DNA of 33,058 nt from positions 1 through 33,058 of the forward strand of contig CAINLR010000190.1 in assembly GCA_903850425.1 (NCBI GenBank), given 5' to 3'. The DNA is from an uncultured Verrucomicrobia subdivision 3 bacterium. Its GTDB lineage: Bacteria; Verrucomicrobiota; Verrucomicrobiia; Limisphaerales; UBA11358. Under the pieces are notes generated by a model. It made no database searches. It saw nothing but the letters and a program-made list of their open reading frames with translations, and was not told the DNA's origin. Of this stretch, positions 9,478 through 11,871 are shown piece by piece; position 1 is the stretch's first letter, and every line of letters starts with the position of its first letter. A program made the translations under genes and the position numbers.

Positions 9478-9513
9478 GCTTTGGCAACCTCGATGAGTTC
9501 AGGGAAAAGCGGC

Positions 9514-9596
9514 AGAGGGCTGCCGCAGTCCAAGACGCTTCGCGCGGAATAAAGACGACTGGAAGCGCGCAGCGTCTTGGACTGCTCCAGCCCTCT
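9514..9596. repeat. Long stem-loop dispersed repeat
   Basis: Arm 9514-9545 and arm 9565-9596 are reverse complements over 32 bases with three mismatches, around a 19-base loop. The arms read agagggctg..gcagtccaag and its complement. The element fills most of the gap between metG and the next gene. Lacking a T-run after the stem, it resembles a mobile palindromic repeat rather than a classical terminator, although such a stem could still stop or protect transcripts. Confidence 0.8.
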
Positions 9597-9635
9597 GGAC
9601 CTTTATTTCGAAAACCCGGATGCGCCAATGCCAAA

Positions 9636-11573
9636 ATGAAATGCAGTATTGACCATCATTTAAAAACGCTGCTGCAAATCACTTTTATTTGTTTGGCCAG
9701 CAGCGGATTTGCACGGAACCTCGAACTGCCGGCACGCGATACCAACTCGCTGGATGGTTACACATTTGCCCGGCAAATCTCCGAACTGAGTCTCGCCGAA
9801 CGCGAAGCCGTCTTCGCCAATGAAATATTCGAGGGCAATGTGCCGCCGTTCCTTCGCACGTTTTGCCCGGTAACGGTCACAAACATTTCCGACAGCCAGA
9901 CCAACGTCGCGACGTTTTTCACTGCGCCGGACTATCTCGCCCTTGGGTCGGATGAAAATTATTTCCTCGCGCCCCTTTCACCAAACACCGCGCAAACCAT
10001 CGCCGACCGCCTTGGCTGCGTCCTGCCGACGCGCAAAATGGTGGATACCATTTACGCCGCCGCCGAAGTGAAACTCCCGCCATCGCCCATTCCGCCCAGC
10101 GCCGCGATGACGACGGTTTCCGTTTTTGCGCAGCACAACCAAACCATCCGCGTGCAGCGCGCCACTTTCCTGACCGCGCAACCGCTCGGCGCACTGACGG
10201 CCGGGCACAAAAAGGATGTGGTCATCTCTGCCCGACTCGCTGGCGTGACCAACAAGGTGGCGATTTACGGCTGGCATCTAGCTAATGGTTTGCCGATCCA
10301 GCCGCTGTATCTCGGCCACACGGCGGCGTGGGTGGACTACAGCCAGTGCATCCGGCTGGTTTCCCAAACCATGATCGTGAACGGCGCAAAGAAAACCGTC
10401 GCGGAAGTCCTGGCGGATCCCCAACTCTGCGGACTCATCAGCGACGAAGGCGTCATCACAAATGGACGCTATCAAAATATTCCTGGTGGCACCGGCTTCC
10501 GGCCGGTCGTTTCGGACGTCGCGCCCGAAACCGGCGGCGAGCAAGGACTGACATCTAATTTTACAGCCAACCAGCAGTCCGCGACCCCGACCAAAATCCG
10601 TCAGGCCGCCGAATTTGACAGGCGAAACGCCCGTGCCACCAATGAAACCCTCAGCCTGCCGTGGCCGCTGATGTTTTCCGCCAGCCCGAATTTCGGCGAG
10701 CTGGCGCGCGAGATTCAACTGCCGGACGAGGTCAGGGTGTTGATCAATGCGCCGGCGCGCGCCGCATTTGCCAAAGACAAGCCGGTGCTGCTCGTTTTCT
10801 ATGCGCTGCCGAATGGAAATTCGATTGAGCAGACCCTCGGCAAAACCCTGCAACCGGGCGACGACTGGCATTTCGCCATCCAGCACATCGGCGCGCAAAC
10901 GCGCTGGCTGCGCAACACCATCACAAACCGCACGATTGTCGTGGCGTATCTGGAAGCGGGCGGGAAAAGCTGGCCGGCGTGGCGCAAACAACACAGCGAT
11001 CAGCGCATCCAAGAGATCCTTGATGGCGTGCGCGGGATTTTTGCGGCGAGCAAAACCGAAGTGGTGCTCGCCAGCCATAGCGGCGGCGGCAGCCTGGTGT
11101 TTGGCTATCTGAATGCGGTGGCGAAAATTCCTGACGATGTGAAACGCATTGCCTTTCTCGACAGCAACTACGGCTACGATTCCAAACTGCACGCGGGGAA
11201 AATCCGCGACTGGCTCGTGGCCGGCAGCGAAAACCGGCTGTGCGTGCTGGCGTATCAGGATTATCTGGGCCTGCTCAACGGCAAGACGTTCGTGAGCGAA
11301 AACGGCGGGACGTGGGGCCGCAGCCTGGCCATGCTCGACGATTTGAGCGCGCCGTTTCGTTTCAACAGCCGGACCAATGGCGGACTAAAAATACTTTCTG
11401 CGCTGAATGGCCGGATTGAATTCATGCTCAAGGAAAATCCCGACCGGAAGATTTTCCACACCGTTCAAGTCGAGCGCAATGGCTTTATTCATGCGCTGGT
11501 TTCCGGCACAGCGGATGAGGGCAAAGGCTATGAATACTTCGGCGAACGGGCTTACACGAAGTGGATTCAATGA
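9636..11573 (+). CDS. Secreted two-domain protein with C-terminal alpha/beta hydrolase
   Basis: A 645-residue exported protein: signal peptide at about 1-26 (KTLLQITFICLASSGFA), an N-terminal domain of about 250 residues ending near YLGHTAAWVDYSQCIRLVS that I recognise only as a conserved-looking module, and a C-terminal alpha/beta hydrolase region. The nucleophile elbow is Ser482 in LASHSGGGS, a variant of GxSxG; possible partners are the Asp of AFLDSNYGY and the His of GFIHALVSG. Residues 284-335 are encoded by an inserted dispersed element (GGTGFRPV...), placed between the two domains. The substrate is unknown; esterase, lipase or amidase activity in the periplasm is inferred. I chose ATG 9636 because it starts the signal peptide; the longer frame runs through the palindromic repeat and the 3' end of metG. 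Confidence 0.7.
   Translation: MKCSIDHHLKTLLQITFICLASSGFARNLELPARDTNSLDGYTFARQISELSLAEREAVFANEIFEGNVPPFLRTFCPVTVTNISDSQTNVATFFTAPDYLALGSDENYFLAPLSPNTAQTIADRLGCVLPTRKMVDTIYAAAEVKLPPSPIPPSAAMTTVSVFAQHNQTIRVQRATFLTAQPLGALTAGHKKDVVISARLAGVTNKVAIYGWHLANGLPIQPLYLGHTAAWVDYSQCIRLVSQTMIVNGAKKTVAEVLADPQLCGLISDEGVITNGRYQNIPGGTGFRPVVSDVAPETGGEQGLTSNFTANQQSATPTKIRQAAEFDRRNARATNETLSLPWPLMFSASPNFGELAREIQLPDEVRVLINAPARAAFAKDKPVLLVFYALPNGNSIEQTLGKTLQPGDDWHFAIQHIGAQTRWLRNTITNRTIVVAYLEAGGKSWPAWRKQHSDQRIQEILDGVRGIFAASKTEVVLASHSGGGSLVFGYLNAVAKIPDDVKRIAFLDSNYGYDSKLHAGKIRDWLVAGSENRLCVLAYQDYLGLLNGKTFVSENGGTWGRSLAMLDDLSAPFRFNSRTNGGLKILSALNGRIEFMLKENPDRKIFHTVQVERNGFIHALVSGTADEGKGYEYFGERAYTKWIQ
10485..10640. repeat. 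156-bp dispersed element inserted in frame in the hydrolase gene
   Basis: Terminal inverted repeats ggtggcaccggcttcc (10485-) and the complement ending ccgtgccacc at 10640 bound exactly 156 bases, or 52 codons, so the host frame is preserved. On the plus strand it encodes GGTGFRPV; on the minus strand it reads GGTGVSPVKFGG, a peptide signature that recurs in many verrucomicrobial and planctomycete proteins as a translated dispersed repeat (recalled knowledge, not searched). It looks like a MITE-like or REP-like element. Confidence 0.75.
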
Positions 11574-11656
11574 TCCTTGGGCGCTACTACGATACTGCGC
11601 CGGCCGCGCTAAAATCACTTGGGTGATGTGAACGGGGTTACCGCAACCGCCTTCCC

Positions 11657-11803
11657 GAAAATCGCCCAGCCATTCATGGCTGGGAACCTCACAAACCTAT
11701 TGCCCAAGTCCCGGCAGGGACGGCAGACAATTTCTTTCGTCCCTACCGGGACTGGGGACCCTGCCGAACTATGAACCCAGCCATAAATGGCTGGGCTATT
11801 TTC
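11657..11803. repeat. Nested double palindrome between convergent genes
   Basis: The outer arms (about 11657-11684 and 11774-11803) read cgcccagccattcatggctggg against ccagccataaatggctgggc. Inside lies a second inverted repeat, tcccggcagggacg (11709-) with cgtccctaccggga. The element occupies half of the roughly 300-base gap between two convergent genes. Paired 'cagccatn-atggctg' and 'gtcccggcagggac' palindromes are typical of dispersed intergenic repeats. The rest of 11574-11871 shows no gene. Confidence 0.75.
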
Positions 11804-11871
11804 GAAGCTTGAAATTATTTGCCGGGCGACTGCTACCGCGCCGAAGGTGTTTCGATTAAATGCGCGTGACA

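Follow-up and report, generated by a model that had tools for sequence, protein, structure and literature searches.

A probable REPIN-like element in frame within a hydrolase-like gene, and RAYT transposases embedded in conserved genes of Verrucomicrobiota

Introduction

In the window (the whole stretch of 33,058 nucleotides analysed in this study), a segment of 156 nt with inverted ends lies inside an ORF and is open in its frame. A preliminary description, made from the letters of the DNA, had proposed a protein-tolerant mobile repeat that spreads by inserting in frame. Is the segment really a mobile element? Is its length of 52 codons a design for insertion into genes? If it moves, what moves it?

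Results

The window element and its host gene

The segment at 10485-10640 is open in the host frame, and its antisense frame, GGTGVSPVKFGG, is also open within a 304-aa minus-strand ORF. Thus, the proposed openness on both strands was borne out. The inverted-repeat arms (10484-10508 and 10617-10641) are 76% complementary, with 108 nt between them. The borders match the ends given by R1, a covariance model of a 47-nt end unit built on 11 training ends, two of which come from the window element itself. The inverted-repeat element therefore stands as first proposed, while its matching ends proved to be 47-nt units of two hairpins each. The features are as follows.

9636-11573, plus strand: host gene, 645 aa, with a C-terminal alpha/beta-hydrolase-like domain; the insert is residues 284-335
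10485-10640, plus strand: whole REPIN-like element, 156 bp, read as GGTGFRPVVSDVAPETGGEQGLTSNFTANQQSATPTKIRQAAEFDRRNARAT in the host frame
10485-10531, plus strand: left end unit, foot GGTGGC and two hairpins (R1 67.9 bits; in the R1 training set)
10491-10507, plus strand: left hairpin 1, 7-bp stem with a triloop (structure from the end alignment)
10509-10531, plus strand: left hairpin 2, 10-bp stem with a triloop, one mispair in the window copy (structure from the end alignment)
10532-10593, plus strand: interior, 62 nt, whose similarity to the PriA copies (see below) is not above the shuffled level
10594-10640, minus strand: right end unit, inverted, with a more degenerate foot and two hairpins (R1 54.3 bits; in the training set)

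A search of Rfam with window positions 10300-10800 gave no match up to E 1. BLAST of the 156 bp against its own genome found six places including itself, and four of the other five cover just the first 50-58 bases of the element. A strict paired-end pattern found 3 elements in the genome, and the reversed pattern found 0.

By predicted fold, the C-terminal part of the host protein is similar to alpha/beta hydrolases (E about 1e-5 in Foldseek, with a TM-score to the target of about 0.5 at most), and a Pfam search of the protein returned no family. The pLDDT of the insert in the predicted model is about 23-33, which says little alone because the whole model is weak (mean pLDDT 59.2) and the orthologue columns are empty there. 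The host protein was searched against 49 genomes of the genus and had matches in 16, its own included. In the 11 orthologues that have both halves, the alignment runs to residues 280-288 and picks up again at residues 333-344. All 11 lack the insert (about 50 residues) and have a short variable linker in its place; since this linker itself varies, the exact empty site is unreadable. Thus, the comparison with orthologues lacking residues 284-335 came out as the preliminary description had expected, and the insert, which it had placed between two domains, does fall between two conserved parts of the protein.

Two other repeats lie around the host gene. A second palindromic repeat (9506-9604), with 40-nt arms that are 85% complementary, is just upstream of it, and a query around this repeat had 68 genome matches with both strands counted. 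An inverted repeat at 11656-11804, after the host gene, has 29-nt arms that are 93% complementary and 91 nt apart.

A dispersed family with covarying two-hairpin ends

The 11 ends align without gaps over 47 columns and share one plan. It consists of a foot of six bases (GGTGGC, GGTAGC, and variants), a first stem of 7 bp closed by a three-base loop, a single spacer base, and a second stem of 10 bp, again with a three-base loop. The foot begins with GGTAG or GGTGG in ten ends and with GTTAG in one; GGGAG occurs in a sister set. In the stems, 96.8% of the cells pair, and changes on both sides of a pair number 39 as against 13.9 in shuffles. Shifting the stem partners abolishes this signal. For 87 distinct matches outside the training set, taken from other fetched regions, the values are 97.7% and 375 as against 114.7, in an alignment that was fitted to the model and so leans towards it.

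R1 has at least 45 matches in the window's own genome at E<=0.1 and at least 32 at E<=0.001; these genome counts are lower bounds, as 150 of 10,225 first-look candidates were scored. Matches at E<=0.001 occur in 30 of 40 genomes, its own included. Thus, a search for copies by the ends, as first proposed, reveals a family dispersed through the genome and the order. Could the segment nevertheless be an ordinary fast-evolving linker of the hydrolase, palindromic by chance and never mobile? The site is a variable linker in the orthologues, and the interior has no recognised copies. Still, this reading is barely plausible when the 47-nt ends recur across the genome and the order with covarying stems, the reversed pattern finds nothing, and all 11 spanning orthologues do without about 50 residues.

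Facing ends were paired in the regions around the listed matches, so that 239 matches gave 91 elements and 57 unpaired ends; these regions are those of the best matches, a non-random sample. Lengths of 155-156 bp dominate in three genomes (G018, G010 and G033), 152-160 bp is found in most others, and G000, G009 and G026 have shorter elements. G018 has 10 elements of 155 bp, 13 of 156 bp and one of 115 bp. In four shorter elements (98-125 bp) of the window's own genome, one end or both have the foot GGGAGC. The window copy itself is of normal size for the family and somewhat degenerate. In a set of 58 pairs, 18 are 155 bp long, 21 are 156 bp long, and 19 have other lengths. A simple gene caller placed 37 of these 58 between genes (the window copy wrongly among them), 13 inside a called gene and 8 overlapping one. 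Since 155 and 156 bp are about equally frequent and most copies are intergenic, a fixed design of 52 codons was rejected: the figure of exactly 52 codons is right for the window copy but not as a family length. Across the family, there is no preference for frame-preserving length, which is what the preliminary description had named as evidence against its own proposal.

No target-site duplication of 1-8 nt was found above expectation among the 91 flank pairs. An extra G precedes the element at -1 in 61 of 91 cases on each side; thus, the true boundary may sit one base further out. Beyond it, an outer inverted extension was not detected (mean of 5.9 matches in 20 positions as against 5.6 when shuffled, within the shuffled range). 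Enzymes of the IS200/IS605 and RAYT types bind hairpin ends as single strands, and their insertion makes no duplication. The 91 flank pairs agree with this type of insertion. A classical MITE, carrying terminal inverted repeats and moved by a DDE transposase, would likewise be near 155 bp, with inverted ends and no gene of its own. That reading is highly improbable, because the ends are covarying double hairpins rather than fixed terminal repeats, target duplication was not seen, and the same kind of ends is found on HUH/Y1 transposases (see below). The family shows the traits of REPINs instead: inverted end pairs at a kept distance, compensatory changes in the hairpins, and a mostly extragenic location, the window copy being intragenic.

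Copies inside genes

How often does an element reside in a gene? I applied a test to the 91 elements that asks for one open frame of at least 40 codons on both sides and coding-like codon use adjoining the element (score above 7 on both flanks, a cut-off fixed after the list was seen). By this test, 13 of 91 are inside genes, and in 11 of the 13 the first base is at codon position 1. The two off-phase copies are L168:5750-5894 (phase 1) and L189:3946-4101 (phase 2). Two of the 13 go back to a common insertion: the L124 and L173 proteins are 74% identical over 622 residues and have the element in the same place, 84.5% identical as DNA. Thus, there are 12 independent insertions, 10 of them in phase 0. 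This shared element, in the middle of a cytochrome peroxidase domain and carried in frame across the divergence of its hosts, shows lasting tolerance. One more of the 13, in L196, belongs to a transposase unit. The survey of in-frame copies thus upholds the first proposal in part: such copies exist, while most of the family is intergenic.

By Pfam, the hosts are IleRS, PurL-type AIRS, UbiD, RapA, a DUF3516 helicase, UvrD, AlaRS, PSD1/PSCyt2, a di-haem cytochrome peroxidase (CCP_MauG; three genomes) and a tRNA_SAD protein that clusters with ThrRS. The peroxidase elements are L124:5943-6097 and L173:5889-6043, at the same site, and L108:8202-8357, at another site. The window's own genome has 14 paired elements; the flank test places 5 of them in genes, and another lies near the 3′ end of a nuoM-like gene. 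IleRS has a single match in this genome, interrupted by an element; thus, the interrupted copy is the only one detected.

The IleRS loop is variable among 29 orthologues (L201-L229): 14 of them (L216-L229) go straight through, and 15 (L201-L215) have varied inserts or longer loops. By eye, at least one of these 15, L207, has a single REP hairpin in the loop. In two congeners, a Y1 transposase lies directly downstream of IleRS (G005:C30:3932-4267 and G012:C128:3424-3762).

Is insertion aimed at a frame? No sign of this was seen. In 68 elements of 152-160 bp read on two strands, phase 0 is stop-free most often (80 of 136 readings as against 51 and 34 in the other phases), so at least some of the phase bias can be put down to the survival of open insertions. 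The in-frame copies look like survivors of selection, aided by the fact that one phase is more often free of stops. As for the protein-tolerant mobile repeat of the preliminary description, dispersal, absence from the 11 orthologues and other in-frame copies in conserved genes speak for it, and the part that fell is a length tuned to the frame.

RAYT transposases in housekeeping genes

In genome G038 (L196), the ends flank a Y1 transposase domain that follows a ThrRS-type N-terminal part in frame; the contig stops within the frame. Is this common? The 165-aa domain was searched against 293 genomes of the order and found at 39 places in 31 genomes, all in open frames of 555-1540 aa. Although the search reads through stops, none of the 39 matches contains one. 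The 33 copies that were read, in 30 loci, lie in AlaRS (inserts at two sites, three genes having both), ThrRS and PriA. One more, in congener G042 (L308), was also read; for the other five of the 39, frame length was the sole criterion. Y1_Tnp matches in 40 genomes, taken for comparison, are mostly in frames shorter than 400 aa. At least seven reach 500 aa among the matches listed; four of these are AlaRS (G013), PriA (G018), ClpB (G006) and the last part of DnaE (G026). One relative, G037, has at least 30 Y1_Tnp matches, many spanning just about model positions 6-62.

From 201 relatives, 80 in named genomes were kept: 68 are embedded (at least 100 aa before and at least 80 aa after the RAYT in the same frame), 8 are standalone, and 4 are at contig ends. 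When both sets are joined, the host clusters are AlaRS (48), RecG (34, one representative identified), PriA (7), ThrRS (6), one pair and six singles. The other representatives are a DnaK/HscA-type chaperone, ValRS and XTP diphosphatase, as well as DUF1156 and PglX-like proteins with partial host matches. The carriers of embedded copies, mostly MAGs, are according to their records mainly Verrucomicrobiota; the others are Phycisphaerales and one further planctomycete, two bins (Kiritimatiellaeota and deltaproteobacterial), and Desulfoferrobacter suflitae.

In L371, L377, L360 and L362, the RAYT shares its frame with segments of defence proteins (DUF1156 or PglX-like). As the host matches are partial, these may be broken or fused genes.

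End units lie on both sides of 19 of the 33 RAYT copies in the order set, 18 of the 19 in phase 0, while 14 lack one or both R1 ends. In the named set, which overlaps with the first, at least 47 of the 68 embedded copies have both (best 150 of 187 end matches), with 43 of the 47 in phase 0. At the model boundaries, the unit length is divisible by 3 in 17 of 19 and 30 of 47 cases. The other units are off by 1-2 bases yet their frame is open; thus, the open frame, not the length, was relied on.

Against the RAYT family model NF047646 (cut-off 80 bits), scores of 84-90 bits were obtained for five of the 16 host proteins scanned and scores of 64-78 bits for the other 11. The predicted fold of the L308 RAYT (pLDDT 86.5) has as its top PDB match 4er8, a RAYT with a REP hairpin (E 1.8e-7). 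The NCBIfam hits shown for the 16 host proteins (for two, the best 25 hits) included no intein family. The HxH motif is kept in 97 of 98 RAYT copies and the tyrosine in 96 of 97; the 98 are two collections not fully cleared of duplicates. That these 98 read without stops follows from how they were picked, and it is the 39-match search that counts stops independently. The dN/dS ratio is 0.06-0.16 in the five closest RAYT pairs, and for the 13 pairs with dS<1 the median is 0.21 and the highest value 0.62.

Could ribosomes or RNA processing skip the hairpin elements, leaving the insert absent from the protein? The byp elements of yeast mitochondria are a precedent for skipped hairpins. Strong hairpins within coding sequence would fit this, as would the 155-bp copies, whose length alone is not a multiple of 3. 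However, in the in-gene copies the open frame of the element joins the host frame on both sides, and the embedded RAYTs share the host frame, conserve their catalytic residues and have a low dN/dS. Skipping would need none of this. It is thus very unlikely, and translation through the element is preferred.

A weightier alternative is domestication: the in-gene RAYTs would be fusion domains that serve a function of the host, passed on mostly by vertical descent, and not mobile units. The same sites recur (AlaRS-1, AlaRS-2, ThrRS, PriA and RecG), and in only 17 of 82 pairs are the RAYTs closer to each other than their host genes are. Because of this last figure, horizontal transfer is not claimed as the main story. 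Against domestication, presence is patchy (31 of 293 genomes), several different host genes are used, and many RAYT units keep their inverted ends. The RAYT tree requires 6 site changes, where the minimum is 3, with the families intermixed, and a few pairs have a RAYT far more alike than the host (86.6 vs 65.5%). On balance, domestication is rather unlikely, and I prefer to regard the embedded RAYTs as resident mobile elements.

Linking the RAYTs to the window element

The direct association is in PriA of congener G042 (L308). Here, one frame comprises a RAYT and, on either side of it, a 156-bp element, the two having facing ends. A third element starts at the last two bases of the frame and provides its TAG stop. 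The transposase of L309 (PLAY01000187.1, Limisphaerales bacterium bog_1418) is 100% identical to that of L308. Identity to the window element is 73% and 76% for the first two L308 elements and is mostly due to the ends. The interior of the window copy has no similarity to the PriA copies above shuffles (the peptide score was reached by 413 of 1000). Since the interiors are dissimilar, it is through the ends that the window element is directly linked to the PriA copies.

The stop of the PriA frame is supplied by the GGTAG foot of the overlapping element (L308:4884-4888). Stop codons supplied by GTAG REPs have been reported (PMC3733652, in part).

The only AlaRS match in the window's own genome has a RAYT in it. 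This RAYT has no good flanking R1 matches; by eye, its ends consist of the foot GGGAGCGC and two hairpins. This foot differs from that of the window copy; the own-genome elements in UbiD, PurL, nuoM and IleRS have it at one end or at both. A RAYT with the window copy's foot was not found in this genome. Besides the own copy, AlaRS matches to the transposase part occur in G004, G013, G044, G050, G053 and G063, and the remaining congener AlaRS alignments listed omit about residues 472-687. The number of R1 matches does not simply track the RAYT: G010 has 32 matches and no RAYT hit, while G013 has a RAYT and no R1 match. At about residues 307-360, the own AlaRS (L279) has SPNVGT/M-like peptide repeats, at the other RAYT site of relatives.

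Other Y1_Tnp loci were considered as the motor and rejected, since no R1 match at E<=0.1 was seen beside the best locus of any of 29 relatives. Three own-genome Y1_Tnp loci have weak R1 matches only (17-26 bits). Among 20 further regions and L106, strong R1 matches were found only in L308 and L106, and weak ones in L302 and L303; the L106 match is a separate element about 1.1 kb from the RAYT domain. Judging from shared end plans, the RAYT clade is the likely motor of the window family, a link absent from the preliminary description.

Discussion

The dispersal of the family, its covarying hairpins, the absence of the insert from orthologues and the in-frame reading here and elsewhere are best explained if the window element is a non-autonomous REPIN-like mobile element, with inverted two-hairpin ends and a variable interior, that is moved by a RAYT. 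I consider this explanation probable. The window copy would have moved in trans as single-stranded DNA by the action of a RAYT, an HUH/Y1 enzyme of the IS200/IS605-like kind, which would bind the end hairpins and insert the element without target duplication. Copies landing in a gene would last where the host frame runs through them, and purifying selection may have let these pass. RAYT units with the same end plan reside likewise, in frame within conserved genes, so that the transposase would be translated as an insertion domain of a housekeeping protein.

Inteins are in-frame residents of conserved genes with a patchy distribution. The embedded RAYTs resemble them in both respects and differ in that the insert is a transposase with REP-type ends and that no intein family was among the hits shown. 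A wider reading, which I hold with some confidence, is that a RAYT clade of Verrucomicrobiota and some neighbours leads an intein-like life without splicing. The whole transposon, ends included, would sit in frame in loops of conserved genes (AlaRS, ThrRS, ValRS, PriA, RecG and a DnaK/HscA-type chaperone; ClpB and DnaE for related classes). It would be expressed as an insertion domain, shielded by the essentiality of its host, and would emit non-autonomous, peptide-coding REPIN-like copies such as the window element. This would be a selfish DNA family that uses coding sequence as its habitat, with repeats and transposase passing through housekeeping proteins while the frame stays intact. Questions of long standing would become testable: by what means do RAYTs last at low copy number, do REPINs supply proteins with new peptides, and which loops of a protein can accommodate an insert of about 30 to 260 residues? 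Aminoacyl-tRNA synthetase genes of unusual size in the phylum, which can be mistaken for fusions or errors, would also be accounted for.

Much of this has known counterparts, here taken from parts of the papers cited: REPINs and RAYTs, intragenic REPs of a verrucomicrobium, GTAG units with a second stem-loop, and Rickettsia palindromic elements (PMC3116915, PMC3733652, PMC10969869). REPINs, REP doublets that form hairpins and occur with RAYTs in Pseudomonas and others, are described as extragenic in the part of PMC3116915 consulted. The window family shares with them the two inverted REP-type ends, the kept spacer length, the compensatory hairpin changes and a probable RAYT association, and differs in having two hairpins per end and some copies in frame in genes (same source and part). 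Closer still are GTAG-tagged REPs, which include intragenic ones in the verrucomicrobium Opitutus terrae (PMC3733652, in part). The likeness covers the GTAG-type foot, inverted dimers, inserts in DNA repair and translation genes, and the probable RAYT link; a precedent for two-hairpin ends comes from P. putida and P. fluorescens, where GTAG units are found joined with a second stem-loop (PMC3733652, in part). Unlike the elements described here, over half of the intragenic inserts there encode 20-30 aa, and the RAYT genes have flanking REPs or TIRs, none being described inside other genes in that part of PMC3733652.

The comparison with Rickettsia palindromic elements, already drawn in the preliminary description, is apt in idea: these are about 150 bp, palindromic, and in frame in unrelated genes (PMC10969869, in part; likened by description), although in another phylum. 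For the CGTC repeats to which they have been assigned, no dedicated transposase was found according to the part of PMC3733652 consulted, whereas here a RAYT with such ends was found. In the open literature, the scope of the search (with supplements, preprints and subscription papers outside it), no report was found of RAYT genes in frame within housekeeping genes. The HUH motif, the one tyrosine and the hairpin ends are shared with the IS200/IS605 and RAYT superfamily (PMC6006769, in part). A survey of this superfamily dropped 'a few unexpectedly long proteins', regarding them as fused genes or mistakes in annotation (PMC6006769, in part). In contrast, long forms are the rule for the RAYT clade described here, at 39 of 39 places in the order and 68 of 80 named loci.
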